NCBI RefSeq assembly: GCF_029873635.1
Contig: NC_080419.1
Coordinates: 80,398,931 to 80,462,930, forward strand
Length of the DNA: 64,000 nt
Source: Malania oleifera
Taxonomy: Eukaryota; Streptophyta; Magnoliopsida; Santalales; Ximeniaceae
Direction: 5' to 3'
In this document: one piece after another, positions 2,928 to 64,000 of the stretch
Numbering within the stretch: the first letter of the stretch is position 1
Layout: every line of letters begins with the position of its first letter
Position numbers and translations under genes: made by a program
The notes under the pieces: model-generated
Seen by the model: only the letters and a program-made list of their open reading frames with translations
Told to the model about the DNA's origin: nothing
Database searches by the model: none

Positions 2928-3352
2928 TGTTGTAGTATGTGGCTTATATCGTGTAGAACACGTGTAGAAAGAAAGCAGGTTGATGCGGGAAGTGAAGCAA
3001 AGCAGAGTGAGGGGAGCGTAGCGTATCGAGTGGAATGACGACATCTACCTTTTGGGCTTGTAATTTATTGTTTTATTGGTTGGGACGATTAATAGGTTGG
3101 GGGTACGGGGGCAACGCCCTTGCGGTTCGATGCAGAGGTATTTGAGAAATTTTTCTAATACCTCTGTACGACTAGGGTTAGTATAAATACATATAATGTA
3201 ACCCTAGTTTGATATAGTGAAATTCAGTCACCGCTTGCTCCTATGGATGTAGGCATACTACCGAATCATGTTAAATATGTGTGTTTTTGTTGCTTTATCT
3301 ATCTCTTTGTTTTTCTATACTATTCATCATAATTGCCACATGCTTCACAACA
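2928..3352 (+). repeat. Copia 3' LTR (425 bp)
   Basis: It starts TGTTGT and ends ACAACA, directly after the polypurine tract. It carries the GGATGTAGG...CCGAATCATGTTAAAT hairpin motif at 3245-3274 (outer stem near 3243-3246/3266-3269, inner stem GTAG/CTAC at 3249-3252/3258-3261). Its partner LTR is not in the window. Confidence 0.8.
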
Positions 3353-4004: not shown

Positions 4005-4481
4005 TGTTATGAAATTTGTTATGAAATATAGGTGGATGTCCCCCATGTCTACTTTGAACCTGCCTCATATATCTATACTAATTCATGTCCTATGTGAACC
4101 TACCCCATATGTTTGTACTAATCAAGTGTATGTCACCCCATCTTCCACCTCTTAGACTTTTTCCCCAATTATTGCTTAGCTATCCATATTGTCTTAGAAA
4201 AGGGCACCCTCCTCTCCTCATTTTGGACACACATTTGATGCTTTCATGTAAGTAGACATATAGTGAGGATAAGAGAAGAGGAGAGATAAAGTGAAGAAGG
4301 GATAAAGAGAAAATAGAGATATCTTGTACAAGGCCAATTTCATATCATATTGTAATTCCTCCCATGACAGTGAAGTTTTGATCTCATCCGACCATGAAGT
4401 AGGCATAGTCAAATCACGTAAATTTCTGTCACGTTTCTATTTATTTATTTTCCTATTTATTTTTTAGTATATTTTATAACA
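4005..4481 (+). repeat. 5' LTR of the outer Copia element
   Basis: It starts TGTTATGAAAT and ends ATTTTATAACA. It aligns along its whole length with 20685-21156. A TATCAGCAC stretch just downstream is the likely remnant of a Met-tRNA primer-binding site. The LTR hairpin region (AGTAGGCATAG...CACGTAAAT) at about 4395-4423 is partly decayed. Confidence 0.9.
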
Positions 4482-8496: not shown

Positions 8497-8509
8497 TGGT
8501 ATCAGAGCT
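8497..8509 (+). other. Primer-binding site (initiator Met tRNA)
   Basis: TGGTATCAGAGCT lies three bases after the 5' LTR. It is complementary to the 3' end of initiator methionine tRNA, the usual primer of plant gypsy and Copia elements. Confidence 0.9.
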
Positions 8510-17458: not shown

Positions 17459-19610
17459 TGTTGATTAAGGTGTAATCCCAAAAGGAGGGGGGAGGGGGTG
17501 AACTGGGTATTTAAAAAAAAAATTCTTTGAAACCTATTTACCAATCAATCCCTATATCTAAGTTTAACTAGTCACTTATCAAGTTGGTTTGAAATTATTC
17601 AACAAACACAAGCAAGCTGGAAATTGAAATACGATGCGGAAAATAAAAAGATAAGGGAAGAGAGAATGCAACCACGATTTTACGAGGTTCAGCCTACCTA
17701 ACCTACGTCCTCGCCTTGAGCAACCACTCAAGGATTCACTAACCCTGCTCCTTAAAGTGGGACGGAGCTTCCCTTACAATCCGTTGCTTACAAAAGGCAC
17801 AACTTCCTTTTACTCCGCTGCTTACAAGAGATACAACTCTCTCATCTCACACCAGTTCACATATCAAACGGTGTATACAATAGAATCTGGAAAATACACT
17901 AAAAAACAATGCTTCTAACAAAAGTTGGTGAGTACAATTCAAATTCCTAAAACATTGACATATGATATAACTTGAAGCTCGTAAATGAATGAAAACGATA
18001 AAATCGTTTTATGTATGGTATGCCTCAACACACAAATCCCTTTTTAACCAAAACTTTTAAGTAAAAATAAATTCAAAACGTTTTGGAATAATTTAGGGTT
18101 CTTGGTTCACTTTGCAAAAATGCAAACTTATATAATTGAAGTGAACTTGTTGGCAAAAACTTTGTCTTGAATAAACACTCAATCAAAATTACAAAGTTTT
18201 ATTTCAAGAACTCAACCACAAAACTGAGTATATTAATTTGCAGAAAAATATCCTTCAATTAAAATTATATTTATAAGTATCAAGGGTATTCAATCAAATT
18301 CTAATGTATCTAAAGATAGATCCTTTTAGAAACCACACACTTGAATCAAACCTTTCAATGAGTCACACACCATAAAACAAATAACGATCTAGTTCAAAAA
18401 ACTTGATATATATAAAGATACTTTCAAGATCACTCTTTTAATCAAAAACTAGGTTTTTTAATAAGAAGCCCTTTGAGACAATATATGTATATTTATATAC
18501 TCTTGAACCAAAATTTAATCTACCAAGTTAGATAAACTTTCTCAAGTAATGTTCTCTTAGAAAATTAATTTTTGTACAAAAAGCACACTCAAGATCAATA
18601 CTTTTCAATACTAATCAAGAAACAAACAATGAGATGATATGCAAAAATCACAAGACTAATAACTTGAAAGATCAAACCTCAATACTAGATTAAAGTACAG
18701 TAGAGTAAACAAGTTCCTTTTGAAAATTGGAATTGATTTGCCCAAGCTTGAAGATATGCGATTGATGTATAGGCAAACGAATAGCACTAAGAGTAGATAA
18801 TTAACAAACTTGCAACAAGGTGTGTTCTTCTCTTTCTTGTGTGTGTCTCTCTCTTCTAGGGTTTAGATATTCATAATATATAGTATATTATCGTTAGAAT
18901 TGATCTCAGCCGTTGGATCAATAAGATACCTCGCGTGTCTTTTTAATAAAGAACTGATTTTTAGGTTTTCCCGCAAGTTCAGACAACCGACCTTGACTTC
19001 AGGCTCCTAAAGTGTCAAATTCAAGCGCTTGAGGTTCCAAGGTCAGGCGACCGAGGTACCTCTGCCAGATTCTGTCTTTCCCATTTAATTCTTCAGGCTA
19101 CCGAACTTAATCTTTAGGCTACCGAAGAAATTCTTCAGGCGCCTGAGGTTAACTTCAGGCTACCGAAGTCCCTTTTTCACACATATTCATTTCCAATTTA
19201 AAATTCTACTTTGATTCTTTGCTTGGGCCTTTTACAAAACAAGTTTTCACAATTTTAAACACATTTCTAAGCCCATGTAAGTACTCTAATGATGTACATG
19301 AAATGCATGAATTTTAAAATCATTCTAAGTTATATTGAGCTTCAAGATAAATCATACGAAAATGTAGATATATGAGTTCTAAATACCCATTCCTAAGACA
19401 TTCTTGAACTTTGCCGCTTGCATTTTGATTCTCATACTCTTTAAGTTCCATGGTACTTTCTAACATGTATAAGCTTTAATTTATGGCATCTATAACTCGT
19501 TATCTTTCCATGCATACTCAGTGCAAGTCCTGGTCACAAACTCAATGCACAGATCAAATATCAAGTGATTTGTCATTATCAAAAACTGGATTGGACTCGT
19601 ACAGTCAATA
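17459..19610 (-). mobile_element. Solo LTR (2.15 kb), Copia-type, inserted in Copia pol
   Basis: Termini are TGTTGA and TCAATA (expected TCAACA), flanked by GATCT (17454-17458) and GATCC (19611-19615), a target duplication with one change. There is no coding sequence. The - strand is chosen because only there does the Copia LTR hairpin appear (stem CGAGG/CCTCG at 17683-17687/17709-17713) downstream of a TATA-like run near 18866-18890. It shares the AGGAGGGGTGAATTGG-like end and several internal blocks with 52855-54712, so both are one family. No second LTR or internal region is present. Confidence 0.8.
18978..19168. repeat. Cluster of CAGGCGCCTGA-like words in the solo LTR
   Basis: About eight variants of CTTCAGGC-(TA/GC)-C(C/T)GA(A/G), including one with the perfect palindrome CAGGCGCCTG near 19136-19145. 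On the - strand they lie upstream of the TATA-like run. Confidence 0.6.
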
Positions 19611-20684: not shown

Positions 20685-21156
20685 TATTATGAAATATGAT
20701 ATGAAACATAGGTGGATATCCCCTATGTCTACTTTGAACCTGCCCCATATATCTGCACTAATTCATGTCCCATGTGAACTTGCCTCATATGTTTGTACTA
20801 ATAAAGCGTATATCACCCCATCTTTCACCCCTTAGATTTTTCCTTCAATAAATGCTTACTATCCATATTATCCTATAAAAGAACACCCTCCCATTCTCAT
20901 TTTGGACACACATTTGATGCTTTCATGTAAACATATAATGAGGATAAAAGAAGATGGGAGATAAAGTGAAAAAGAGATAAAAAGAATATAAAGATATTTT
21001 GTATAAGGTCGGTTTCATATTATATTGTAATTTCTCTCGTGATAATGAAGTTTTGATCCCATCCGCTCGTGGAGTAGGCATAGCCGAACCATGTAAATTT
21101 TTGTCTCGTCTCTATTTATGTATTTTCCTATTTATTTTTCAGCATATTTTATAACA
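20685..21156 (+). repeat. 3' LTR of the outer Copia element
   Basis: The pair of 4005-4481. It carries the hairpin with outer stem CGTGG/CCATG (21068-21072/21089-21093) and inner stem GGC/GCC (21077-21079/21083-21085). It ends ATAACA and is followed by ATTTA. Confidence 0.9.
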
Positions 21157-21161
21157 ATTTA

Positions 21162-21591
21162 AACTTTATTAAGAATTACTAAAATATTTTATATAACATT
21201 ATTCATATGTAACCACTTGTTTATATAATATATAATATATAATATATAATATATATTCATATGTTTATAATACATGAACATATATTACTGAACTGTCAAC
21301 TAAAAAAAATTAACTGATTTCTTGTTCCATATTTTAGTTTTTGAAGGAACCATTGTATTTTAGTTTTTCAACTGCACATCCAATGTCACTACTTTGAAGT
21401 TTGAAGTTTGTTTGAATCCATATCCAAGTATGGATCCATTTCCGTATAACCCAAAACGAATAGTCCAGTAGAACCCTTAGGCTTAACACAACCTCTCATT
21501 CCTTCTCTCTCCTTCTCTAAAACCCTAGGCTCAGGGCAGCGACCTCACACACACACACCAGAGAGAAAGAGAGAGGGAGGAAGCTTCAGCC
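21162..21591 (+). promoter_or_regulatory. eIF3l promoter-proximal region and 5' UTR
   Basis: This is the 430 bp between the Copia LTR and the eIF3l start codon. It contains short AT repeats (21225-21260), a pyrimidine-rich stretch (21495-21518), the telo-box AAACCCTA at 21520-21527 and a CA run at about 21546-21560. Telo-boxes in 5' leaders are common in plant genes for ribosomal proteins and translation factors. No convincing TATA box was found. Confidence 0.6.
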
Positions 21592-24500
21592 ATGGCGGCG
21601 TCGTACGATTACGAAGAAACCCCAGGCTACGACGATTCGCACCGCTCCCACCACCACCATGCGCAGACGCAAGATCTAGGCTACGACCCTAACTTCGTCC
21701 CGGATTCCGTCAAGAGCTTCGTCGGCCACCTCTACCGCCACATTCGCGAGAAGAACGTATACGAGATTCACCAGATGTACGAAGGCTCCTTTCAAACCCT
21801 AAGCGACCGCATGTTCAAGGAGAGCCCCTGGCCCTCTGTCGACGCCGTCGCGCAGTATGTGGACAATGATCACGTCTTCTGCTTGCTTTATCGCGAGATG
21901 TGGTTTCGGCATCTCTATGCGAGGTTGTCGCCAACGTTGAAGCAGAGGATTGATTCTTGGGACAATTACTGTAGCTTGTTTCAGGTGGTGCTGCATGGAG
22001 TTGTTAACATGCAATTGCCGAACCAGTGGCTGTGGGACATGGTGGATGAATTTGTGTACCAGTTCCAGTCATTTTGTCAGTACCGTGCAAAAATGAAGAG
22101 CAAAACTGAGCAGGAGATCGCCCTTCTTAGGCAGTTTGATCAGGTTGGTGTTTTGATATAACATTTTTCTTGTTCACAAGCAAATTGAGCTAAATTCTGA
22201 TCTTATACTAATATCTTAATCGATGAGAAAGGTGAGCAAAGCAAAAAGAGATTTATTTTTCTTACCGTTCGATGAAAATATCAAGAGAAAAAGGAAATGG
22301 ATTTGACAATGTAGAGGAATGTGGATTATGCAACGGATGAACTCATGAAAGAGGAATTCATTTTCATTGCTTGTAGTAAAGATAACGAGAGAGGTCATAT
22401 CACTGTAAAAAATTATCAAAACAAAACCTAAAAACCAAAATAAAAGCTAAAGACTGAAAAATGACGACCTTCTTGTTTTTGTTTGCAAAACTAAAACAAA
22501 TTTAAAAGCTAATTAGGTGATCAATTTTGTCCATACAGAAAATTGCAATTAAAAAATACAATTAGAATAATGAAAATGCAAAAAAAAAAAAGAGTAAAAA
22601 GTTATAATCAGAATAAGATTTAATTAGAATCATTTTAATTAATTATCCGAGGTAGTACAGAGGAGAGGAGAGCCTTCGTCTGGTTTGTTTGGAAGGAAAG
22701 AAACAGGAGAGCCTATGAAGGGTCTATTTAAATATCCATCGGAATTTTATTTTAATTTTTTTTTTTCATTAAAGAATTATGTACAAAATGTTTTAATACA
22801 CAAAAGCAAATTCTTGTTCTATGGCTATAAGTTGTCACAACAATTGAAAATCATGAAATTTGGTTTTCAGTTTTTGTCACAACTGAGAACCGACAACAAA
22901 ATTGAAACTAGCAGTGCAGACAGATGCCTTGTTGCCACATGTGTCTTCAATATACTACAGCAAAAACAGAAAATAGAAATGGCTCCAAACTGCCCCTAGA
23001 GACTTCTCAAACCGGGAAGTTTGTTTGAGGGAGTGGAAGGAGGTAAATGGATGATATGAGCCAGGGGCTGGAGCGTGCCACCATTTTGGGTGGATGTGGG
23101 TGGGGGTAATGTACTCTCATCGAAGAAATAGACACTCCCAATGATACCTGACTGGCCAAATTAAAGCAGAAGTGAGCAGATTGATCAACTAGAAATTTCA
23201 GCTTTTGCTGTGATGATGATTTAGAGCAGCAGGATGTGGACTTTTGCTTTGTTATGCAACAACTTTTGCTTATTTTCCTCCTGAAGGTGCCTAGCTTTTA
23301 TGTTTTAACTCATGCATCTGCCAGGAAAGTAAGTCCAAAAGCCAAAGTGTTGGGTGCCCACCCGAAGCATTCTTGGGCAAGTAAACATCTTACCTGCTAA
23401 TTTGCTGTTTTTATAGAATGATATATATTGGTATGAATATTTAATTATTTTTCAGTTTTAAAATTTGAAAAACATGAATAAAATGGTGCTGTTTCGCCCT
23501 CTTGCATTGGCCCTACAAATATTTTCTCTTCCCTTTTCTAAAATTGCATGTCCAAGCTGTAATGTTTTCTAGTTTTATTTGATTGCAACATTTGGTTATT
23601 TTACTCTTTTCCAGGCTTGGAATGTGTATGGTGTGCTCAACTACTTGCAAGCACTTGTTGAGAAGTCCACAATCATCCAAATCCTTGAGCAGGAGAAGGA
23701 AGGCCTTGAGCAGTTTACTGCCACTGATGGGTATGATTACAATGGTGGAAGTAATGTCCTCAAGGTTTTAGGGTATTTTAGCATGGTGGGATTGTTGCGA
23801 GTTCATTGTCTGTTGGGTGATTACCATACTGGTCTGAAGTGCTTGCTACCTATTGACATAAGTCAACAAGGTGTTTATACAAGTGTTATTGGAAGCCACA
23901 TTACCACAATATATCATTATGGATTTGCCAATCTTATGCTGAGGAGGTATGCTGCTTTACTATGCCTACGTATGCTGCTTTGACTGGTTACTGTGTGTTT
24001 GGACATTTTCTATTATCATTTTTCATTGTGATGTGAAATTATCTGCCCCCATATTCTTCAGAAAGCCATAGTGATATTATCTCCGTAACTGTTTATAACG
24101 CGTGCAAGTCTATATATATGTTTTGCAAACATATGTGTGTGTGTGTGTGTGTGTGTCTCGTGTTTTGCATGCACATCCTTGGCTTGAAAATCTTCATTTA
24201 CTACTTTGCGGGGAAAAAGACGAGGAAAATCTGAAAATCCATTGCATTTAATTTGTGAATGAATTGGCATTTTGCTTTCTGTTTTTAAATCATTTAGCTA
24301 AATTTTTTGTTAGGGAAATTGACTGGCATTATTTTGTTAAGTAGACACTCATGAAAAAGTAAGTTGTTTATGAATTTTCAGGGTTTCTCATCAAATATCA
24401 GAAAAAAATATTTGCATATTTTTTAAATTCGAGAATAACACCTTTTACCATGAGTTCTTTTGGAAATTTGAATGAGCTTCATGTTCAGGAGAGATGCTTA

Positions 24501-37045: not shown

Positions 37046-40000
37046 ATGGCACGGGGCCGCACAGGGTGTTGCTTGCACAGCTCTCTCAGGACAGTCAACT
37101 TCATAGTGAATGTCTTTGGGGTTGGAATGATAGTATACTCACTCTGGCTCCTCAAGAAGTGGAAGGAAGGGATTGCTGAGCTGCCTTCTATGTTTTCTCT
37201 TCCACACCCATGGTACTCAATTCACTTGTTTTATCTACACACACACACCCAAATTTTGAAACTTCATTAAATCTCGGATTTGTGTTTTCCAGTGAATTTG
37301 TGTACTACTTCTGGTATACTCCGGAATACGGATTTTATTATTTGCATGGAACGTGGAAATATTTTTGCAAAAAAGATGAAAGCACTGCTTAAAAGAAGTA
37401 GTTAGGTAAAAAAAAAAAATGAATGACTGAAATTCTATGTATATGTTATTGATCATCAAGTGGAGATTGAGGGATTCAGATTGTAAAGAACGGAGAGAGA
37501 ATTCAGTGCATGTAATGACGTGATGTGCTATGCTAATGTTGGTTTACAACGCAATTGTTAGAGATGGATCTAGAAGACAGCCAAGAGATGACGCGTTGCT
37601 GAGTTAGAAAACGCATAGAATTATATCTCAATTAATCTCTCCATTTTAAACTTCCAATTGTGATTAATTTGATTGATTTGTATTTAATTATGATGTAAAT
37701 TCCAAGCCTATATAAAGAGAGCTGTGGAAAGTGTATCATATAGCATAGTATAGTGCAGAGTGAGCACAGAGAAGCTCAGGAGAGCAGGAGAGCTGAGAGG
37801 AAGAAGGGAGGAAGAGAGAGACAGAGAATTGTAACATTTTCCGGTGAGTTAGTGAATTTTGGTGTGTGCTCCGTGGACGTAGGTCATTATTGACCGAACC
37901 ACGTAAATTTCTTGGTGTCACTTTGATCTGGATGCTCACAGGTTCCTAACAAGTTGTATCAGAGCCCGGTTGGAGCAGAAAAGCCAGATTGGAAGTGATC
38001 CTGAAATTTAGAGCTTTGTCTAGTAGATCAAAACTGTGTTTTGAGGCCACCATCTCATTCAGCTTGCCGAGACAAAGAGAAGGGTGTCTGCTGGAGCTCG
38101 AACGGAGTTCAGATAAGCCTACGCACGCCCACATGCGCCTTGCTGAAGAAAGACGTCTCTCCATGCGCCGGCGACGCGCCGCACGCGTCTTCCTCGCCAA
38201 AACCGCCTCGACCTGACCCGGAAAAACTCTTAGACCCGGGTGAACCTGAGATCCGACTTCACGACCCGGATCCGACCCGCCTTTTCAGAACCGGCCACGC
38301 AGCTTCGCCACGTTAGCAGGTCCCACCACGCCATCCGCCACGGCATCAGTGGGCCCCACCCCGCCACGTTAGGGCCACGTCACCAGGTGGGTCCCACTTT
38401 GCCATGTCAGCAGTAGGTCCCACCTCTATCACGTCAGCGGAGGTGCCACGTCAATAGTGCCACGTTAGCAAGCTTGACCAAGTTTGACAAGGTTTGATCA
38501 AACTTTGACTTAACTTTTCGGAGTCGTTTTGGGTCCGTTTTTTGAGCGACTCGAACCATTTCTAAGATTTTTGATCATTCTGGATCCAACCGTGCTATCC
38601 ATTTGAGCTAATTCCATCTCTAGATTAGCAAATCGAGATTTTGAATGAAAAGAGCCCAAAAATCGAAATGTTCAACGGGAACAATTTCGATTTCTGGAAG
38701 ATGCAGATAGAAGACTATTTGTTTGGAAAGGAATTGCACTTACTGTTGAAGGGTAAGCCCACATCCATAAATGAGGACAAGTGGGAGCTGTTTGATTGAA
38801 AAGCCCCTGGAGTCATCAGAATGACATTGTCAAAATCTATGGCGTTCAATATCAAGCATATAACATCCACAAAGTCTCTAATGGATGCGCTCTCTAATAT
38901 GTACGAGCAGCCTTCAGCCGCAAATAAGGTACATCTTATGAAAAGACTATTTATGATGAACATGTTTGCAGGTGAGAGTTTCAGCAAGCATTTGAATAAC
39001 TTCAATAAGTTGTCTTATCAACTCGCCTTAGTCGGGATAACATTTGATAATGAGATTTGGGCCTTACTAATTCTCAGTCAATTGCCTGAAAGTTGGAATG
39101 GTGTCGTTACTGTCATCAGTAGCTCCGTAGGAAAATCGAAACTTGGATATGATGTGGTCGTCAGTATGATTTTGACGGAGGAGATAAGAATGCAGTCTAA
39201 CCATGGTTTCACTTCGAGTTCAACCTTGAACATGGAGAGTCGAGGCAGAGGAAACAGGCATGGACGATTAAACAACCGAGGCAGATCTAGGCCCAGAGAG
39301 TCTAAATCCTGAAATCCCAGAGGTACTCAGGACATAGGTTCTCAGAGCACTGTGGAAAGACTAGTCATTACAAGAACCAGTGCAAGAGTCAGAAGAAAGA
39401 ATTCGAGACGAGGGAAAAGACAGAAGCAAATATTGCTTCTGAGAATGATGAGATGTTGATCTGCTCTTTGGAAAGCAAGCAGGAGTCTTGAGTCTTAGAC
39501 TTCGGAGCCTTATTTCTTGCCACATGCTGCAGAGATTGCCTAGAGGAGTACACACCAGGTAATTTTGGTAAGGTGTACCTTGGCAACGATCAACCTTGAG
39601 ACGTAACCGGTAAGGGAGTTGTGAAGATCAATATAAATGGGTCAGTATGGAAACTGAAGGATGTCAGGTATATTCCATACCTGAGAAAGAATTTGATTTC
39701 AGTTGGTCAGCTAGCAAATGAGGGATACACAATGAAATTCATTGGCTATAAATGGAAAGTCTCAAAGGGTGTACTAATGATTGCGCGAGGTAAGAAAAGC
39801 GGAACACTTTTTCTAACCTCCAGTGCCTCTATGTCTATTTCAGTTGCTGCAGGAAATGATGACAGTAACATCTGGCACCAACGACTTGATCACATGAGCG
39901 AGAAGGGACTCAGGGTGATGCACTCAAAGGAAAAATTGAGTGGTCTACAGTCAGTGCAGGTTGACATATGTGAGGATTGTATAGTCAGGAAACTAAACAG

Positions 40001-43000
40001 AATTAGTTTCTAGATAAACACCTATGCTCCAAAGAAGAAGGGACTAGAATTGGTCCACTCAAAATGTGTTGGGCAAAATACCGAGAATCCTCAGGTGGAG
40101 GAACCAGTGGAGCAAATTGTCGCACCACCGTCTCCTACTCCAGCTCCGGAGCTTAGGAGATCTACTCGGTCCCATATACCAGATAGAAGGTATATTGATT
40201 ACTTACTTCCTATAGATGGAGGAGAGCCTGAATGCTATGATGAAGCATGTCGGGTGGTAGATACGAGCAAGTGGGAGCTTGCGATGAAGGATGAGATGAA
40301 GTCCCTCACCTCCAACAGAACGTGGAAGTTGCCTAAAGGCCTTCACAACAAGTGGGTGTATAGAATTGAAGAGGAGCATGACGGCTCCAAAAGGTACAAG
40401 TCTCGGTTGGTAGTCAAAGACTTCGAGCAGAAAGGGATTGACTACACTGACATTTTTACACCAGTTGTGAAGATGACAGCTATCAAATTAGTCCGCAGGA
40501 ATCGAGCAGACAGGAAGATGGCGACTACAAAGAAGTAGAAGTTGTGTTCAACTTCAGTTGGTCTTTATGCTTGAAAACACATATTATGAGTACATCATTT
40601 ATTCATGATACTCTGGTTGAGAAGGTGTCTCTGTCTCCAAGTGGAAGATAGTTAGAGATGGAGCCAGAAGAAAGCCAGGAGATGATGCGTTGCTGAGTCA
40701 GAAAACGCGTGGAATTATATCTCAATTAATCTCTTCATTTTAAACTTCCAATTGTGATTAATTTGATTGATTTGTATTTAATTATGATGTAAATTCCAAG
40801 CCTATATAAAGAGGGCTGTGGAAAGTGTATCATATAGCACACTACAGTGCAAAGTGAGCACAGAGAAGCTCAGGAGAGCTGAGAGGAAGAAGGGAGGAAG
40901 AGAGAGAGAGAGAGAGAGAGAGAGAAAATTGTAACATTTTCCGGTGAGTTAGTGAATTTTGGTGTGTGCTCCATGGACGTAGGTAGTTATTGACCGAACC
41001 ATGTAAATTTCTTGGTGTGACTTTGATCTGGATGCTCATAGGTTCCTAACAACAATTGATTAACTTTTGATTGATTTTTAGTTCATGAAAGAAGGTAGTG
41101 TATGTAAATAAATAAATAAAATAAACAAAAGCAACCAAAATTGCATGTTTAAGAAGAGTTCCACTTTCCTCTTTCTCCTGTTTTCTTTTCTTTTTTAGAA
41201 CATACCTGGCAAGGAGAACTTCCTCTGCATTTCATTTTGGACATGTCAAACTTGGTTTTCGGCTAGTTAGCATTGTATTTCTGAGTAACTGATATATAGA
41301 TTTTACTCCTCAGGTTCATCTACACATGTTTAGGTGTGGGAATTGTTGTGTGCCTGAGCACACTCTCTGGCCACATGGTTGCCAACTGTATCAGTAATTC
41401 TATCCTATGCATCGTATCCTTTCAAATGAACTGCTCAACTGCCTCCTTTTTTGCATCATTAAGAAGAGAAAAGGATAGAATCTTCACAAACTGTTTGGAT
41501 CAAGGAATTTGTTTGAAGAAAGGAAAATAAGAGGGAAATATATTTTTTATTATATTTTCTCTCCGCATCAAATAGAATTACAAATAAATATTTATTTTAG
41601 CACAGCTAAGAATTAAGAAAAATTAAATGTTTATCAAGTATAAAATCATGTATAAAATAAAAAAATTATTCATTAATTAATTATATATATATATTATTTT
41701 CTTTTTCACTTTCCTTGCTAACCAAACATGAAAAAGTGGATTTTTTTTAATATATATTTTCCTTTATTTTCTCTCATATTTTTCAATTTCCATACTGACC
41801 ATTAAGGTTTTGTTGGTGCATATGGAAATCATTTCCTGTCAACAAATTTGTGTTTGAATCGCTAAGCTTGCTGGAAAACAAATAATTTGTCAGTAATCTT
41901 TCCCATAATATGGCCAAATTCTGCATTATACTTTGTGCATACATATATTTTGTGCATGTGTGTGTGGGTGTAAAGAAAGGCAGAAGTTGCTTTCGCCATT
42001 TTGGTCCAGCATGAAGATAAAAACATGCATAACTAATTTTCAGGAAATGATTTCCATATGGGCAAATTGAGCTAATTTTTTTTTTTAAAATTAAATTTAA
42101 TATAGTATTTATCTTATTTTTTTAGTTTTCAATTTTTCACGGCATAATCCTTGACATTTTCCAAGTATATTGTTTCCATATACTCCCTTCTTTTCATCCA
42201 AATCGGAGTGATTGTCACAATTTTCTTCAAGATAGACTGGGAATCAGTATGTCTTCTTAAGCTTGTTGCATCTATTATGTTTGTTTGGTAATATCATAAT
42301 AAAAGTAGTAAAAGAATGAATGCAGTGTGGATTATAAGGTTATCAAACTTTGTTTCTGGATTGTATCATTGCTCAATTACCCTAAACAAATTTCTTTAGG
42401 AGTGACTACAATAGAAAGAGATGCCACCTGCTCTAACGAAAATGTTAAAAAGGAATACATTACCAAGTTCGAAATTTTTTTTTTTATGTTGAACGTTATT
42501 GCCTGGAGCGATTGGCTTCCTTAGATTTTGTGTGAGTATAAAAAATAAGGATGAAAACCACTAAATCCTTCACCGATGAAAAAAATCATCATATGATTGG
42601 TATTCTAGTCACCAAAAATCACCTAACATATCTTAGCCATGTAGTAACAAGTTCTTTCAATAGTTACGGTAATGTTTGGAAAAAAGAGAGAGAGGGAGAC
42701 AAAAAGTTTGTATCTGCTGGTAAATCTCATCCAACTAAGATTTGATTTTTGGCATGCTCTTCCTCCTAAATTGAGTAATTCGAATGATCTAATCCAATCT
42801 TATTAACTATTAATATTCACCTCTTATCCAAAAAGAGAAGAAGAAAGAGAATAAAGGCTCAACATACTGCAGTGATGGTGATTGCTAGTCATTCTTTTAT
42901 GAAGTTGCTTCCTAATGCACCCTCATTCCCTCTTAGCATTTAAATGTGTTGGTATTCTTTTGTAGCTTACTTTCCTCCCTTGGTCTCCCTTGTGACAGCA

Positions 43001-46246: not shown

Positions 46247-46857
46247 ATATTTACATGGTTGGGCCCATGACCTAATAGACTTAAACTTTTGAGTCAAGTT
46301 GGTATTCACCAATGTGTATCAAGCCCGCTCATGAGCTCCTCTAGTGCTATCGAGTGGTATCAGGGCCAACAATTTGTAACTTTGAGTGAGTAACATCATA
46401 AAAGTCGAGACTTGAAGCCAATTCTCCTAATATGCTAACAGTTGGAGGACCAAGTGTGTGACCGAGGCCAATAATGATTATCTAGGCCTGGGATGGATTT
46501 GAATAGGGTTAAGAAATGAGAGGTAGGATTGGTTCGGAGGCACGTGGAATGCAATCTGAGGCATGTACGCTAGTGGTAAGGCTCACTTGAGCAACTGTTG
46601 GGGAATTAGACTTACTCTCATAAAGGAGATGGTTTCCGTTTAAGGGGGAGCAGTTGGAACTCATAAAAAGGGGGGAGGGGGGAGGAAGATTGTTGAGAAT
46701 TCCACTTGTGAGCTTGTCCCACATGGAAAAATTTGAGTGGATGATGGGTGCTTATATACATGGTTGGGCTCAAGATCCAATAGGCTTAAGCTTTTGTGTC
46801 AAATTGGTGTTCACTCATGTGTATCAAGCCCACCTATGGGCTCTTCCGATGCTATCA
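46247..46857 (+). mobile_element. TRIM (miniature LTR retrotransposon)
   Basis: A direct repeat of about 100-110 bp, beginning ACATGGTTGGGC and ending GATGCTATCA or similar, occurs at 46247-46352 and 46752-46857. A primer site TGGTATCAGGGCC (46355-46367) follows the first, and a polypurine tract (GGGGGGAGGGGGGAGGAAGA, about 46670-46689) precedes the right LTR, which starts TGTTGAGAATTCC at 46691 (167 bp). The interior is only about 340 bp and non-coding. The left LTR lacks a recognisable start, so the element is incomplete on that side. Confidence 0.72.
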
Positions 46858-51430: not shown

Positions 51431-52854
51431 ATAACGATAACCTCCCTGCAGTTCTGTCAAGGAAAATCTTCATCCCAAGTATTTTCTTGGCTGAATCAAG
51501 ATCCTTCATGTCAAATTCCTTATACAATAAGTCCTTTAACTGATTCACCTCAGTTAAATCCTTCGCAGCTATTAACATGTTATCGACGTACAATAACAAG
51601 AAAATAAGAGAGTCATCCTCAAGCTTGTTCACATATACGCAGCAGTCATACTCACACCTTTTGTAGCCAATCTTGATCATGTAAGAATCAAACTGTTTAT
51701 ATCATTGCCTTGGAGACTGTTTCAGCCCATAAAGAGATTTCTTTAACCTACAAACAAAATTTTCTTTTCCCGATTCAATGAATCCCTTCGGCTGTACCAT
51801 GTAGATTTGTTCCTCGAAGTCACCATGAAGAAATGCCGTCTTCACGTCCATTTGTTCCAAATGAAGATCATAATGGGCTACCAACCCCAACACAATTATG
51901 ATAGAAGTATGTCAGACCACTGGAGAAAAGATCACATGCATAATCTATACCCTTCTTCTATGAGTATCCTTTTTCCACCAACTGTACCTTGAATTTCTCT
52001 CCTTCCTTGTCTGAAATTGCCTTTTTCTTCCTATATACCCATTTGTAACCTATTGGTCTCTTTCCATTTGAAAGCTCCACCAAATGCCAAGTTTGGTTCT
52101 TATGTAGTGATTCCATCTTCTCAATCATCGCACCCATCCACCTATCTTTCTCTTGGCCATGCACTGCCTCTTGAAAAGTAGTTGAATCGTTGCAACTAGT
52201 AAGGAAAGCATAAGATACTAACTCTTTCGAACCCATGTGCTAATGTACATAGGGGAGAACAATTATATCTTCTACTTAGAACCCATGCAAACTCCACCAT
52301 ACAAAAGGAGTACCTCAAAATTTTGCAAATTCCATAGGGATGATAGGCACGACACAGAAGAGTGCGTCCCCTTGAAAAATGAAATGGAAGCTTTAATAAG
52401 AAGGGGATACTTAAAAAAATTTATAAAAAAAGGAGTGATCGCCGAGATGAAGCACACCCACAAAAAACCAGGGGTTAAGCAAAAAGTAGAACACGTTGTA
52501 GGAGAAATTGCTGTGATTTTTGGAGGACCAGCTAGTAGAGGGGATAACAGGGGAGTAAGGAAAAGATATGCAAAGAAGGTTTTTCTAGCTGAGGATCAAC
52601 AATGTAATAGAAAAAAGCAGAAGCATAAGGAGATCATTACCGTCATGGAGGAAGATATGGAAGGTGTACAACAACCAAACAATGATGCTTTGGTGGTATC
52701 ACTACTTGTTGCCAATTATTAGGGTAAGAAGAAAACTGATAGACAATGGAAGTTTGATTGACATAATATTTTGGTTGGTTTTGCATGAAATGAAGATGGG
52801 AAGGGAACTTCCTAAAGTCTGTCTCAATGCATTTAGTCAGACTTAGAGGAGATG

Positions 52855-54712
52855 TGTAAAAAGTAAGGTGTATTCCCAAGAGGAGGGGTGAATTGGAATT
52901 TAAAAATTTCTTTTACGCACTTTTTGTAAATTCTTTCTCAACTAATTTTTGGATTCAACAATCACACATGTATGGTTTGATTTTCAATCACAAATTCAGT
53001 CACGACACAACTTAATTTAACTCTTTATAGACGAGTATATCAAGTTTAATGTTTTGCAAGTTTCTCAATATTTCATTCAGCAAATTTATTTAAAACTTAA
53101 TAGGACAATTCAATCAATCAAGATAATGCTTCACAATGTGAATTGCTATAACAATTCTAGCAAGTTTCCAAGATTCGGTCTTTTGATGTTGAGCTATAGC
53201 TGATGAACGACCTATTTAATGAACGTACTCCCTTAGAAGGTTTTAGCAAGATTCAATCGACATACTCCCTTTTTTAAGGTTTCCGCAATTCCAAAACAAA
53301 AGATGATTTTCAGCAAATTAAATAAGCATCCATGCAGTATATATGTGCTGAAATTTAAAGAGTAGGGAAGATAGTGACACCGAGATTTTTACAAGGTTCA
53401 GCTATACCCGCTTACGTCCTCGCCTTAGGTACACCACCCAAGGATTGCACTATACCACTCCTTTAACCGGGCGGAGCAAACCGTTTATACACTCCTTCAA
53501 ATAGGATGGAGCCCTCCTCTCCAAGCGATACCCCACACTCAGTAATCCAATGATTCAACAACCTGAACCATAAAAAACAACAAGAAACAAGAACAATTCT
53601 TGTGTACAAAGACACTTTCAAAACAGAGCTGATTAGTACAAGTTAGAGCACTAATATACTTCAAATTAAAATAAATAAAGAATGAATTTGAAGCTCAAGA
53701 AATTAATCACTGGGTTTTTCTTTAGATTGAAAAATCTCAGTAAGAACAAAAGAACCGTGTAGTTGTGTCAGCAGAAACTCAGTAGAACTTCAGCAAGAGT
53801 GAGTGAGCAAGAAAGCTTTTGAAGAGTATGAGAGTTAGAGACTTTGATTGCTAATTATAAGTAGTTGTGTAATAATCCTTTGGTTTTCCATGTATTTATA
53901 GAGTTTTAAAAGTAATATTTCCCAAGTTTATACAAAGTTTGGAGCCCAAGCAAACATTTTTGGAAACTTTCCCACACTGCTTTGTTTCAAAATTTACGAA
54001 GCTTATTCGCCTGATAAAAAGGTGTTAGTCGCCTGTCACTTTAAAAATCTAGCGTTTTTAAAAAGTCAGTACTCTGTCAGGAGCCTGAGAGTGTTCAGTC
54101 AGTCGCCTGACTCAACCTCATAAACCTGTCAATCGCCTGATATGGATCTGTGAGGCGCCTGTCACGGTTTTGTTTGCATTTCTTAAAAACCATATAAAAT
54201 GTCAGTGGCCTGACAAAATTCACTCAGTCCCCTAAGCATGCATTTTTACTGTTTTTAAGATTTTGTTTCTGAAAACTCTTTTAGCTTTTAATCTTAGAAT
54301 ATTAGATTTGAAATTTGAAAAATATATTTTCCAGGGTTTTAAAAATAGGTCTCTAAGTCTATAATCATTCCTAACGAGCTTCAAAGCATCCATATTGACT
54401 TTAAATGAAGTACTACACAAGACTTTTTTAAGACTTAAACATTCTAAATGTGAAGTCTTAATGTATGTCTTTCTTTGAGTCCATCCTGACTTTGAGCTTC
54501 AATATTCTTTAAGCTATCATAAGATTTGTCAAACTTTGATCTGTGTAGCTTTCTTTTGATCACTTGTTTGGAATGTAGGCTATCAATGTACTCTTGATCT
54601 TGAACTCTAATGCTTGATTCCTAAAATATCATCACTTTAACCAAAACATGTTAAATTCCTTTGATTTTTTTTTATCATCAAAATAAGATTCATAAGCCTT
54701 GATAGGCCAACA
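52855..54712 (-). mobile_element. Solo LTR (1.86 kb), same family as 17459-19610
   Basis: The left end is TGTAAAAAGTAAGG, running into GAGGAGGGGTGAATTGG; the right end is GGCCAACA. The flanks AGATG/ACGTG match only in part, so the ends are good to a few bases. On the - strand, TATAAATA (53900-53893) precedes the hairpin (outer CCTCG/CAAGG at 53418-53422/53392-53396 with one wobble pair; inner GCT/AGC at 53410-53412/53400-53402). Words around CAGTCGCCTGA repeat about seven times at 54005-54236, upstream of that TATA box. There is no coding. Confidence 0.75.
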
Positions 54713-55266: not shown

Positions 55267-55800
55267 TGTTGTTTTTGTCCCATATTGGTAGAATACTTCC
55301 ACCTTAGTATAAAAGGTTGTTTTGAATTTTTTATATTATTTGTCCCACATTGGAGAGAAGTGTTTTTTAGACTTGAAGTTGAAGCTATATAAAAGCTCAA
55401 CTCTTCATTTGTAAAATACACCTCAAAGTTGTACTTTGTCAAGAAGTAGTGGATTGATCATCGGCGCCCGAGGACGTAGGTAATTTTATACTGAACCTCG
55501 TAAATTTCTTGTCTTGTTCTTTTTATTACTTTATTATTAGTTTCTGCATTGCTTTAAGTTCTTATATATTTAATAGCAATAGTTGTAGTATTTGTATTTG
55601 GCACAAGTGGGGTGCCTGGCACAACAATTGATCATCGGCACCCGAGGACGTAGGTAATTTTATACCGAACCTCGTAAATTTCTTGTCTTGTTCTTTTTAT
55701 TGCTTTATTATTAGTTTCTACATTACTTTAATTTCTTATATATTCAATAACAATAGTTGTAGTATTGGTGTTTAGCACAAGTGGGGTGCCTGGCACAACA
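55267..55800 (+). repeat. Left LTR of Copia element A, with internal duplication
   Basis: It starts TGTTGTTTTTGTCCC and ends GGCACAACA. TGTCCCA(C/T)ATTGG occurs twice in U3 (near 55275 and 55347). A TATATAAA box lies near 55386. The hairpin occurs twice (55469-55500 and 55643-55674), because 174 bp are duplicated. Confidence 0.93.
55453..55800 (+). repeat. 174-bp tandem duplication in the left LTR of element A
   Basis: Two units, 55453-55626 and 55627-55800, each begin ATTGATCATCGGC and end GGCACAACA. They differ at several scattered positions. Neither the right LTR of A nor the LTR of copy B has the duplication. Confidence 0.95.
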
Positions 55801-58800
55801 ATTGGTATTAGAGCCAGGTTGAATAGTGTTGATACAAAGGTGTTCCTCTATTAGGATCCTTGATTCCATGTTCGATGCTTAAGAAAGACCTTGTCTAAGC
55901 GAGTGCTCAGAGACCATTGCAGCTAAGTCGCTCCCTGGAGGTCGGCCTGGTCAAAGCGGAATTTCATAGGATAAAACTGAGTAGACACTGTTGGTACATA
56001 CTATTCACCCTAGGCCTTTTGTTTTGTTGGTTGCTATTGAATATATAGAAGATGACAGAAACTAGTGCAGCAGTAGAAGAAACTTTGTCCACACAAACTC
56101 CAACCCCTTTGGCTTCGACATCATCATCGAAGACAATAGCTAATGCTCGGTTTGAGGTGGAGAAATTTGATGGTACCAATAATTTTGGTATATGGCAATG
56201 TGGGGTAATGAACATCTTGTATCAACAAGAACTAGATATTGCTTTGGATGATAAACTGGTAGATATGGGTGACAGAGATTGAGAAAATATCAATTGTCAG
56301 GCATGTGGTACGATTCGTCTGTGTCTCCCCAAAAATTAGAAATATTGTGTTATGAGGGAGACATCTGCAAAGAAATTGTGGAAGACATTGGAAGATATAT
56401 TTATGACCAAGAGTCTGGAAAATTGGCTCTATTTGAAAAAGAAATTGTTTCGCTTCCAGTATCAACCAGGTGTTTCGATTAATAACCACATAAATGCTTT
56501 CAATAAAATTTTGGCTGATTTGTTAAATTTGGATGAAAAGGTGAAAGATGAGGATAAAGCCATACTGTTACTGAATTCTCTCCCAGATGAGTATGAACAT
56601 TTGACCACCACTTTGTTGTATGGGAAAGATAAAGTTACTTATGATGCTGTTTGTACTGCATTGATTAGTACTGAATACAGAAAGAAGGATAAGAGGGTCC
56701 ATAAGGAAACAGCAGAAGCACTAACAATAAGGGGACGTTCTTAGAGTCGTATGCCTAGAAGGAAGAGTAAATCTCATGGGAGGAGTAAATCTTGTGAGAG
56801 ACCTGCTAAAGATGAATGCACCTTTTGTCGTGAGAGAGGGCATTGGAAGAAAGACTGCACTAAATTACAGCAGAAAAAATAAGGGCAAAGCACATTCTAA
56901 TGCCAATATAGCCAATGATGATGGAAGTGAGTCAGATTTTTCTCTTATTGGAACATCTTCGTCACATTATTTTGGCGAGTGGATTTTGGATTCTGGTTGT
57001 TCCTATCACATGTATCCCAATAGGGAATGATTTTATAATTTTGAAGAATTAGATGGTGGGGTTGTTTTTATGGGAAATGATAATACATGTAAAACAATTG
57101 GAATAGGATCAATACAGTTGAAATGTCAAGATGGAACTATTAAGACCTTGACTGATGTTAGGTATGTTCCAAGCCTAAAGAAGAATTTGATTTCATTGGA
57201 TGCCTTAGAATCTAAAGGGTTTACTATCACTTTGAAAGATGGAACCTTAAAGATTAAATCAAGTGCACTAGTGGTGACGAAAGGAATAAGGAAAAATAAC
57301 TTGTACTATTTAGAAGGTAGTACAGTTATGGGCTTAGCAATTATTGTTTCTGAGAAAGATGCAGGTTCAGTTACAACCAAGTTATGGCATATGCGATTAG
57401 CACATGTAGGAGAAAAATCTTTGCAATAATTAGCTAAGCGAGGTTTGTTAAAGGGTGCAAAGGTGTGCAAACTTGAATTTTTTGAGCATTGCATTCTGGG
57501 AAAACAAACCAGAGTGAAATTTGACACAACAAATCACCAAAATGAAGGTATTCTAGACTACATCCATACAGATGTATGGGGGCCCACAAAAAGCGCTTCA
57601 TTGGGTGGTATGCATTATTTTGTCACATTTGTTGATGATTTTTCCAGAAGAGTTTGTGTGTATTCTACGAAGCATAAAAATGAAGTGTGTGATATTTTCC
57701 TTAAGTGGAAAAAATTAGTTGAAACTCAAACTGCTAAAAAGATTAAACGGCTCAGATCGGATAATGGTGGTGAATACACGAGTGACCCGTTTATGAAGGT
57801 ATGTCAGGATGAAGGTATTGCTCGACACTTCACAGTTCGAAATACACCACAGTAGAATGGGGTGGCAGAGTGCATGAATCAGACTTTGCTGGAGAAAGTT
57901 TGATGTATGTTGTCTAATGCTGGGTTAGACAAAAGGTATTGGGCTGAGGCTGTTAGATATGCGTGTCATCTTGTCAATCATCTACCATCATCTGCAATAG
58001 GGGGAAAAACACCCTATGAGGTATGGTATGGAAAGCCTGCTAGTGATTATGATTCTTTACATGTATTTGGTACTATGACTTATTATCAAGTTAAAGAATC
58101 TAAGTTGGATCCAAGGGCCAAGAAAGCAATATTCTTGGGGATAAGTGCAGGAGTCAAAGGATACCGTCTTTGATGTCTAGAGATGAAAAAAATGATTTTA
58201 AGTAGAGATGTAACTTTTGATGAACTTGCGATGATGAAGAAAACAATACGCAAGGAGTCACGTGTTGAAGAGAAGACCCGTGGTACTCAACAACAGGTGG
58301 AGGTTGAGACAATTTTGGGAAACCCAGTGAGAAATGAGACTACACAAGGTAACTCTCCAGTTACGGTGGGGAATAGTGTTCAAGGAGAGGAGATTTCAAT
58401 TCGAGAATCTTCACAGCAACAAGAATCAATTTTTTCTCAAAGGCCAAGACAAGAAATTCGAAAACCTGCTCTGTATATTGATATGGTGGCCTATGCACTT
58501 CTAGTTGTGGATGATAATGATTCTTACACTTTTAAAGAAGCAATGAGGAACTCTAAATTAGACAAGTGGAAAAAAGCAATGGATGAAGAAATGCTGTCTC
58601 TTCATCAAAATCAGACTTAGGAGCTAGCCCAGCTGGCTAAGGGTAAGAAAGCAATTGGTTGTAAATGAGTTTACGTAAAGAAAGAAGGATTTCCAGATGC
58701 AAATAATGTTCTCTTCAAAGCTAGATTGGTAGCTAAGGGATACGCATAGAAGGAAGGCATTGATTATAAAGAGGTATTTTCTCCAATCGTTAAACATTCT

Positions 58801-60172: not shown

Positions 60173-60536
60173 TGTTGTTTTTGTCCCACATTGGTAGAAT
60201 ACTTCCCATCTTAGTATAAAATGTTGTTTTGAATTTTTTATATTATTTGTCCCACATTGGAGAGAAGTGTTTTTTAAACTTGAAGTTGAAACTATATAAA
60301 GAGCTAAACTCTTCATTTGTAAAATACACTTCAAAGTTGTACTTTGTCAATAAGTAGTGGATTGATCATCGGCGCCCGAGGACGTAGTTAATTTTATACC
60401 GAACCTCATAAATTTATTGTCTTGTTCTTTTTATTTCTTTATTATTAGTTTTTGCATTGCTTTAATTTCTTATATATATTCAATAGCAATAGTTGTAGTA
60501 TTGGTGTTTGGCACAAGTGGGGTGCCTGGCACAACA
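60173..60536 (+). repeat. Right LTR of Copia element A
   Basis: 364 bp, starting TGTTGTTTTTGTCCC and ending GGCACAACA, with a single copy of the U5-side segment. The hairpin is at 60377-60408. Confidence 0.93.
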
Positions 60537-62701: not shown

Positions 62702-64000
62702 TGTTGTTTTTTTTTTTTTTTGTCCCACATTGGTAGAATACTTCCACCTTAGTATAAAAGGTGGTTTTGAATTTTTTATATTATTTGTCCCACATTGGAG
62801 AGAAGTGTTTTTTAGACTTGAGGTTGAAGCTATATAAAGAGCTCAACTCTTCATTTGTAAAACACACCTCCAAGTTGTACTTTGTCAAGAAGTAGTGAAT
62901 TGATCATCGGCGCCCGAGGACGTAGGTAATTCTATACCGAATCTCGTTAATTTCTTGTCTTTTTTTTGGTATTGCTTTATTATTAGTTTCTGCATTGCTT
63001 TAATTTCTTTTATATTCAATAGCAATAGTTGTAGTATTGGCGTTTGGCACAAGTGGGGTGCCTGGCACAACAATTGGTATCAGAGCTAGGTTGAATAGTG
63101 TTGATACGGAGGTGTTCCTCTGTTAGGATCCTTGATTCCACATTTGACGCCTAAGAAAGACCTTGTCTAAGCGAGTGCTCAAATACCATTGCGGCTCAGT
63201 CGCACCCTGGAGGTCGGCCTGGTCAAAGCGGAATTTCATAGGATAAAACTGAGTAGACACTGTTGGTACATACTATTCACCCTAGGCCTTTTGTTTTGTT
63301 GGTTGCTATTGAATATATAGAAGATGACAGAAACTAGTGCAGCAGTAGAAGAAACTTTGTCCACACAAACTCCAACCCCTTTGGCTTCGACATCATCATC
63401 GAAGACAATAGCTAATGCTCGGTTTGAGGTGGAGAAATTTGATGGTACCAATAATTTTGGTATATGGCAATGTGGGGTAATGAACATCTTGTATCAACAA
63501 GAACTAGATATTGCTTTGGATGATAAACTGGTAGATATGGGTGACAGAGATTGAGAAAATATCAATTGTCAGGCATGTGGTACGATTCGTCTGTGTCTCC
63601 CCAAAAATTAGAAATATTGTGTTATGAGGGAGACATCTGCAAAGAAATTGTGGAAGACATTGGAAGATATATTTATGACCAAGAGTCTGGAAAATTGGCT
63701 CTATTTGAAAAAGAAATTGTTTCGCTTCCAGTATCAACCAGGTGTTTCGATTAATAACCACATAAATGCTTTCAATAAAATTTTGGCTGATTTGTTAAAT
63801 TTGGATGAAAAGGTGAAAGATGAGGATAAAGCCATACTGTTACTGAATTCTCTCCCAGATGAGTATGAACATTTGACCACCACTTTGTTGTATGGGAAAG
63901 ATAAAGTTACTTATGATGCTGTTTGTACTGCATTGATTAGTACTGAATACAGAAAGAAGGATAAGAGGGTCCATAAGGAAACAGCAGAAGCACTAACAAT
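62702..64000 (+). mobile_element. Copia element copy B (same family as A), cut by window end
   Basis: The left LTR is 62702-63072 (371 bp, starting TGTTGTTTT and ending GGCACAACA), followed by a primer site (TTGGTATCAGAGCT, 63074-63087) and the leader, then gag from 63324. It aligns with A at a constant offset of 7272. From 63205 to the window end I see no difference from 55933-56728, including the same damage. Left of 63205 the two copies differ at about one base in nine. It has a single-copy LTR without the duplication of A. It is inserted in the LRR gene fragment. Confidence 0.93.

Follow-up and report, generated by a model that had tools for sequence, protein, structure and literature searches.

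Short structured elements in the transcribed part of LTRs can act at the ends of the RNA, as is the case for HIV-1 TAR, the poly(A) hairpin and the folded poly(A) region of HTLV-1. The two-stem hairpin of plant Copia retrotransposons described here differs from these retroviral R/U5 hairpins in element group and loop letters and, unlike theirs, it lies at a variable distance from the TATA box, between 84 and about 960 nt; the comparison is one of descriptions. In foamy virus, according to the available part of PMC3694450, RNA structure together with U1 snRNP decides poly(A) use in the LTR, but this is a retrovirus and was compared with the Copia elements by description as well. Structured RNA is also found in the retrozymes, plant LTR elements with hammerhead ribozymes (PMC4918200, part of the text available), whereas the present hairpin had no ribozyme match in Rfam. 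None of 4227 Rfam families matched the window (the whole 64-kb stretch of DNA analysed) at the gathering score, and the best weak matches in two LTR stretches had E values of 4 and 9.1. With no match, an Rfam family or a known ribozyme was rejected.

Two published accounts concern plant LTRs directly. The accessible part of Bousios et al. (2010, PMC2829016) describes a TATA box, a PBS junction, a polyC integrase signal, CGG-CCG repeats and a PPT inverted repeat for Sireviruses. Three sets of LTRs from the searched genome (L274/275, L276/277 and L282) resemble that description in their long LTRs, TATA box, polyC near the 3' end and iMet-type PBS, but none of the motifs in the accessible part is the present hairpin, and the strings ACGTAGG and CGAACC are absent from the main text. 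The LTR models of Benachenhou et al. (2013, PMC3601003) are similar to the LTRs studied here in that plant Copia LTRs show TATATA, TGTAA and T-rich poly(A) surroundings, but the part available has no such hairpin, and no word in it begins with GTAGG. No description of the hairpin was found among the open-access full-text papers listed, and an earlier description elsewhere is possible; the available parts of PMC3561071, PMC3443450, PMC9097378, PMC1698483 and PMC10458927 had no bearing on it.

An initial annotation of the window had listed ten sites with a recurring sequence frame, and the frame was found at all ten coordinates, on the strands given. These sites belong to five families, F1-F5. 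The hairpin (hairpin B, as distinct from a second hairpin directly 5' of it in some copies) was located as follows, with scores from a model, R1, built from 34 copies, among them five window sites that match by construction.

3242..3270, + strand: hairpin B, F1, decayed, with ATGTA, outer arms TATGG/TCATG, two of the outer pairs being G-U, inner stem of 2 bp (R1, 24.1 bits)
4393..4418, + strand: hairpin B, F2, second and more decayed copy, absent from the initial annotation (R1, 14.4 bits, E 0.14)
17683..17713, - strand: hairpin B, F5
21068..21093, + strand: hairpin B, F2, CGTGG-AGTA-GGC...GCC-GAA-CCATG, in an LTR 3' of a Copia RT match
37872..37903, + strand: hairpin B, F3, 5' LTR, CGTGG-ACGTA-GGTCA...TGACC-GAA-CCACG (fold z -3.76)
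40972..41003, + strand: hairpin B, F3, 3' LTR of the same element as 37872, CATGG/CCATG, inner stem partly broken
53392..53422, - strand: hairpin B, F5
55469..55500, + strand: hairpin B, F4, first copy in the 5' LTR, CGAGG-ACGTA-GGTA...TACT-GAA-CCTCG (R1, 51.8 bits)
55643..55674, + strand: hairpin B, F4, second copy, produced when 174 bp on the 3' side of the LTR were duplicated in tandem
60377..60408, + strand: hairpin B, F4, 3' LTR, decayed, with one outer and one inner pair lost
62915..62946, + strand: hairpin B, F4, 5' LTR of the next element copy, which runs off the window

A loose pattern matched the window 10 times against 2.04 expected, and two of its matches (13002 and 36554, both on the - strand) fall outside the ten sites of the initial annotation. 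A descriptor that left the letters of both stems free, asking for 5 bp in the outer and 3 bp or more in the inner one around the internal loop A(N)GTA/GAA and tolerating at most two G-U pairs, found eight window sites, all among the ten; in 100 dinucleotide shuffles it found 0.06 sites on average and never more than 1. When the loop strings of the descriptor were permuted, the remaining 35 of 36 yielded 0 or 1 site. The bases between the stems had been described as nearly fixed, which is correct for ACGTA facing GAA in the large classes but not for F2, which has AGTA.

The initial annotation had also proposed that the outer stem changes between families. The stems do differ among families, but one of the contrasts offered, CGTGG/CCACG versus CATGG/CCATG, is CpG decay inside a single element. 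A single F3 element carries the hairpins at 37872 and 40972, one in each of its LTRs (91% identical), and the difference between the hairpins therefore arose after insertion, at CpGs. As stem changes at CpGs between old copies are decay, it is the family-level changes that count as evidence.

The 174-bp tandem duplication in the F4 5' LTR covers 55453-55626 and 55627-55800 and includes the hairpin; its joint is ATTG, common to the LTR-PBS junction, and it resembles the outcome of a template switch in reverse transcription. Another copy of the F4 element (62898-64000), 97% identical to 55626-56728, extends past the window end. An ORF with a Paf67 domain, presumably of the eIF3 subunit L family, lies just downstream of an F2 LTR (21529-22158) and is a host gene.

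Within the window alone, covariation over the five families was not significant (permutation P 0.07 to 0.13: inner stems 0.13 with G-U pairs and 0.07 for Watson-Crick pairs, outer stems 0.07), and genome data were therefore needed. The addition of two citrus primer strings gave inner-stem P values of 0.006 and 0.016, which became 0.0008 and 0.004 when the other F5 copy represented its family.

The genome that is the source of the window (C3:80398931-80462930), 1,494,336,490 bases in all, was searched with several patterns. The core pattern, GGACGTAGGN{4,20}CGAACC, had 25,560 matches (12,626 + 12,934) against 15 (11 + 4) for the reversed control. A pattern without stem constraints, anchored on AGTGAA, ACGTA, GAA and TAAA, had 9,848 (4,806 + 5,042) against 314 (153 + 161), and a pattern with GTGGAATCC, ACGTA, GAA and ATAA had 6,801 (3,350 + 3,451) against none; among the 100 matches listed of these 6,801, many carried CGGGG/CCCCG outer arms, as judged by eye. 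Because all three patterns fixed ACGTA, part of the loop conservation among their matches is built in. The loop is supported independently by the window sites found by eye, the descriptor control and the AGTA class, for which a variant pattern had 213 matches (102 + 111) against 1 in the control. Loop E, or the bulged-G internal loop, consists of AGUA facing GAA, and the same arrangement is present in F2 and in the 213 AGTA matches, whereas the large classes carry an extra C (ACGUA); this is a likeness of letters alone.

Pieces of the motif were also found in 4 of 14 citrus LTR primer pairs (PMC7876178), where the available part makes no remark on structure, and the motif is thus probably not limited to this plant. 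In IMG/VR, the strict pattern had no match and no relative of the F4 integrase was confirmed; one match lay in a bacterial- or phage-like contig, and a motif scan by eye of the matches listed for two looser patterns (at least 120 per pattern) revealed nothing plant-like. In GTDB, two matches lay in contigs titled bacterial and were judged by context to be chance.

The first genome set was drawn from 100 listed matches of the 9,848, of which 94 could be parsed and 93 were distinct. Watson-Crick pairing was in clear excess at outer pair 3 (88 copies vs 56.6 expected), inner pair 3 (75 vs 62.0) and inner pair 4 (82 of 91 vs 38.4), with P at the floor of 0.0002 in each case. Outer pairs 1 and 2, which when intact carry CpGs on both arms, were paired about as often as expected (61 vs 59.8 and 71 vs 68.8), and no excess at P 0.05 was seen for inner pairs 1, 2 and 5 or outer pairs 4 and 5. 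Since the CpG pairs behave as expected and the non-CpG pairs are in excess, the copies have decayed neutrally, whereas the differences between families consist of matched changes.

A second set of 73 rows combined 30 loci of the core pattern, 39 of 40 fetched stretches (L332 was not parsed) and four window sites. The fetched stretches were hand-picked for varied strings rather than at random (19 from the stem-unconstrained and 21 from the core pattern), and the set shares at least 27 copies with the 93-copy set. Outer pair 3 was AU in 30 rows, UA in 25, GU in 10, GC in 4 and otherwise in 4, that is, Watson-Crick in 59 against 27.7 expected. Inner pairs 3 and 4 were again in excess (57 vs 43.7 and 40 of 71 vs 20.7), and outer pairs 1 and 2 were again at expectation (50 vs 49.2 and 52 vs 50.6). 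Among the AU/GC-type copies alone, inner pair 3 gave no significant excess (31/44 vs 27.4, P 0.13). The 10 G-U against 1 A-C at outer pair 3 would fit a plus-strand RNA, although the G-U copies may be one subfamily; Sirevirus-type copies with G-U there include L257, L262, L270, L325, L330 and L333.

Grouping by a simple edit-distance rule on the flanks defined 19 families. At this level, outer pair 3 was UA in 10, AU in 7, GC in 1 and GU in 1, with 18/19 Watson-Crick against 8.3 expected (P 0.0001). Inner pair 3 was paired in 19/19 (14.0 expected, P 0.0015) and inner pair 4 in 11/19 (6.4 expected, P 0.0185; P 0.11 with G-U), outer pair 2 was marginal (17/19 vs 13.9, P 0.037), and inner pair 5 showed no signal. 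In the 34-copy alignment, in which the F2 row is misaligned, the covariation score was 0.352 against 0.219 shuffled (0 of 500 shuffles as high), and 90.5% of cells were paired, compared with 23-38% when the partners were slid. Two of five measures remained at shuffle level in this alignment, namely both-side changes (5 vs 4.6) and further pair types (16 vs 15.0). Because the rows are related, the shuffle P values overstate significance.

Single-copy folds (n = 20) had the two-stem form as the minimum in 11 cases and z of -1.5 or lower in 11, and several preferred another register. The competing register ACGU(A)GG/CCACGU was rejected, with a covariation of 0.059 against 0.060 shuffled, though some single copies fold so. 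Since the middle outer pair and inner pairs 3 and 4 covary and the competing register does not, the hairpin looks like a selected RNA structure with covarying stems, and we hold this with high confidence. The proposal of such a structure in the initial annotation thus survives the CpG objection, as at copy level the CpG pairs decay independently while the non-CpG pairs covary.

The landmarks around the hairpin, including hairpin A directly 5' of hairpin B in the Sirevirus-type copies, are as follows.

17714..17733, - strand: hairpin A, Sirevirus-type copy (CCTTGAG...CTCAAGG), directly 5' of hairpin B
37554..37952, + strand: F3 5' LTR (partner LTR 40648-41052)
37709..37716, + strand: TATA box, F3 5' LTR, 163 nt upstream of the hairpin
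37829..37834, + strand: TTGTAA upstream of hairpin B, F3
37850..37857, + strand: conserved TAGTGAAT element upstream of hairpin B, F3
37954..37965, + strand: primer-binding site, F3 (TTGTATCAGAGC, one mismatch to TGGTATCAGAGC)
53423..53443, - strand: hairpin A, Sirevirus-type copy (CCTTGGGT...ACCTAAGG), directly 5' of hairpin B
55386..55394, + strand: TATA box, F4 5' LTR, about 83 nt upstream of the hairpin (-84 in F4c)
55447..55454, + strand: TAGTGGAT, F4 counterpart of the TAGTGAAT element
55803..55814, + strand: primer-binding site, F4 (TGGTATTAGAGC)

Seven LTRs were measured, representing six elements or solo copies (F3a and F3b come from one element). All seven have a TATA-like box upstream of the hairpin, as the initial annotation had it, at 84-194 nt in five classic LTRs and at about 915 and 961 nt in two Sirevirus-type LTRs. 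In L274/275, the aligned LTR opens with the TATA-like string, and further TATA runs occur at about -440; the TTGTA and T-rich search there started at -930. As the hairpin lies in the LTR downstream of the promoter, it should be present in the genomic RNA. The distance from the hairpin to the LTR end was 45-247 nt in the seven LTRs, and in L282 the PBS lies about 490 nt from the hairpin start. An iMet-type PBS follows the 5' LTR at 37954, 55803 and 63075; it is exact in L278 and L282 and has one change in L274/275 and L276/277.

The surroundings of the hairpin are also patterned. TTGTA occurs 25-90 nt upstream in 7/7 LTRs; of the 17 TTGTA strings that lie between the TATA box and the end of the LTR, 9 fall into this zone, where 2.8 would be expected. 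In the five short LTRs, the 30-nt window richest in T begins at +31 to +45, where the hairpin ends or shortly beyond; in the two long Sirevirus-type LTRs it is not at the hairpin. In F3, only 244 nt separate TATA and LTR end, with a single TTGTA 43 nt before the hairpin. Beyond what the initial annotation had noted, all five window families have a TAGTGAAT-like element that precedes the hairpin by 22-28 nt and is itself preceded by a string resembling TTGTAA. Across the 19 families, TTGTA was present upstream in 13 (2.9 shuffled mean), TAGTG[AGC] upstream in 15 (1.3) and [GT]GTGT downstream in 12 (2.9).

The arms of hairpin A were readable in 64 of the 93 rows, and pairs 5 (58/64 vs 31.1 expected) and 6 (61/64 vs 39.2) covaried. 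Copies L313, L320, L323 and L327-L329 have hairpin A together with a U-A type outer stem (CGTGG/CCACG and decayed forms), and the outer stem type is thus not tied to the presence of hairpin A. A third candidate hairpin further upstream in Sirevirus-type copies (GTTCC...GGAAC) was rejected, with a mean fold z of -0.2 (40 of 42 selected rows).

Hairpin B is a cis-acting RNA element of Copia (Pseudoviridae) retrotransposons. It is present in both LTRs of the F3 (37554-37952/40648-41052) and F4 elements and of the L274/275, L276/277 and L278 pairs, which were fetched because two matches lay close together. We take F4 to be a Tork-type Copia element from the features named here, and F5 to be Sirevirus-type from its hairpin A and LTR similarity. 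The F4 element has RVT_2 and Retrotran_gag_2 matches, gag/PR matches lie inside F3 and RT beside F2b, and Copia-type matches were found at L275, L278 and L282. Among 18 stretches around hairpins, seven had a Copia-type match to pol or gag, six had a Ty3-type match only (L281, L283, L284, L286, L288 and L290) and five had neither pol nor gag near the hairpin (L276/277, L285 and L291-L293); the Ty3-type matches are taken as probable neighbours of the hairpin element. Integrase fragments share 31-42% identity between the Tork-type (F4, L278) and the Sirevirus-type (L275, L282) elements, and the hairpin occurs in distant Copia lineages. Moreover, L282, L274/275 and L276/277 carry a polyC signal (ATTCACCCCCCC...) shortly before the PBS, which fits the description in the available part of PMC2829016.

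No LTR ends were found for F5 in the window. Tork-like RT fragments (51432-52224, - strand) lie 1.2-2 kb downstream of the F5b hairpin, and their RT2 part is 56% identical to F4; they may be nested, neighbouring or a point against the Sirevirus-type label. The window also contains one Ty3-type element with 1.8-kb LTRs (6684-8493 and 13568-15384, 89% identical), a PBS at 8497 and RVT_1 at 10755-11066, and this LTR pair, the only one of its type in the window, had no hairpin model match up to E 1. Very short, TRIM-like LTR-like repeats of 104 bp (46248-46351 and 46753-46856, 81%) enclose a PBS-like site (46355) and nothing that matches Copia or Ty3; they have only a chance-level hairpin match on the other strand (E 0.32).

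As for function, our preferred reading is that the hairpin takes part in 3'-end formation of the genomic RNA at the R-U5 boundary, to which we assign a probability of roughly 0.37. The outer stem of 5 bp and the inner stem of 2-5 bp would hold a near-fixed internal loop, A(C)GUA facing GAA, marking the R-U5 boundary region. UUGUA upstream and the U-rich tract downstream would act as ordinary poly(A) signals, UUGUA/UGUA being presumably the plant far-upstream element, and the folded hairpin would set or regulate cleavage near them. We infer the placement in the poly(A) region from the UUGUA before the hairpin in seven LTRs, the U-rich tract after it in the five short ones and the little room in F3. 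A hairpin in R would sit at both RNA ends and could help the first strand transfer.

Several search results speak against this reading. AATAAA was absent from all 19 families both upstream and downstream of the hairpin and from all seven LTRs, and weaker A-rich variants suffice in plants according to the available part of PMC3601003. A candidate cleavage string chosen by eye was rejected (strict form 0/19; loose form 5/19 vs 2.6, with 52 of 500 shuffles as high). Genome searches for A-runs 32-62 nt after the hairpin gave two overlapping rows at one place against none in the control, and there the LTR continues past the A-run; with a gap of 3-33 nt, 10 rows at two places against 8 control rows showed no excess, one place being unrelated by context and the other ambiguous. 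These searches provided no clean poly(A) copy and hence no support for a 3' end. In L334, a Sirevirus-type LTR, a run of 13 A stands about 50 nt after the hairpin, where F5b has CAGCACATATATA; it could be slippage, L311 being likewise A-rich there, or the trace of a poly(A) site.

A role in the U5 leader is practically as likely, the 3'-end reading being hardly ahead. In this alternative, itself tentative, the hairpin would be confined to the 5' end of the genomic RNA, where it would serve the Gag or RT of the element itself in packaging, dimerisation or the start of reverse transcription. It agrees with the position of the hairpin, which in the elements examined precedes the LTR end (by 45-247 nt in seven LTRs) or the PBS (by about 490 nt in L282), and with its occurrence beside Copia-type pol of distant lineages; moreover, Ty1 Gag promotes RNA dimerisation and the start of reverse transcription (PMC8396678, part available). 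In the available part of PMC3601003, the short-LTR 'Sire' model has its poly(A) site close to the TATA box and an R of about 10 bp, and with so short an R the hairpin would be in U5. However, the distance between hairpin and PBS varies about tenfold, a packaging signal need not sit inside the LTR, and the cluster of UUGUA and U-rich tract would be left unexplained. It is unlikely that the hairpin is primarily a strand-transfer element in R, guiding or pausing the first template switch: it does lie in the transcribed part of the LTR, and the F4 duplication starts about 16 nt upstream of it with the ATTG joint that a template switch would leave, but this is a single duplication with its break point outside the hairpin, and the location in R is putative.

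Still less probable is an element acting as DNA, that is, an inverted repeat bound by integrase or by bZIP factors, which bind ACGT. The large classes do have ACGT in their loop, and undecayed U-A families have it a second time, in the right arm, but the right-arm ACGT is missing from the A-U and G-C families and the F2 loop has none; furthermore, stem letters swap with pairing kept, and the distance to the LTR end ranges from 45 nt to several hundred. The absence of any selected structure, with pairing due to CpG decay and shared descent, is the most improbable of these readings. At copy level it does account for outer pairs 1 and 2, and it also accounts for the difference between 37872 and 40972; it draws further on the relatedness of the rows and the overstated shuffle P values, but as a full explanation it was rejected because non-CpG pairs covary, swapping by double transversions between families (UA 10, AU 7, GC 1, GU 1), and because sliding the partners or adopting the competing register removes the signal. 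A 5' splice site at GTAAAT was rejected as well, since Sirevirus-type families in which ATAAC follows the hairpin lack a GT at that place.

Little is known of the RNA signals that act in cis in plant LTR retrotransposons, though these elements make up much of plant genomes. A hairpin common to distant Copia lineages is a landmark for the R/U5 part of the LTR, might help in the annotation of degenerate LTRs, and offers a place to test RNA ending, packaging or template switching of Copia elements. We tentatively suggest that it might represent an undescribed RNA family older than the split between Tork-type and Sirevirus-type elements, present in at least two plants and marking the R-U5 boundary, in which one conserved partner (Gag, RT or a host cleavage complex) would read a nearly fixed, loop-E-like internal loop and the two arms of each stem would drift in step. 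If this is true, few structured RNA motifs of the plant would be as common as this hairpin, whose exact core is present in more than 25,000 copies.
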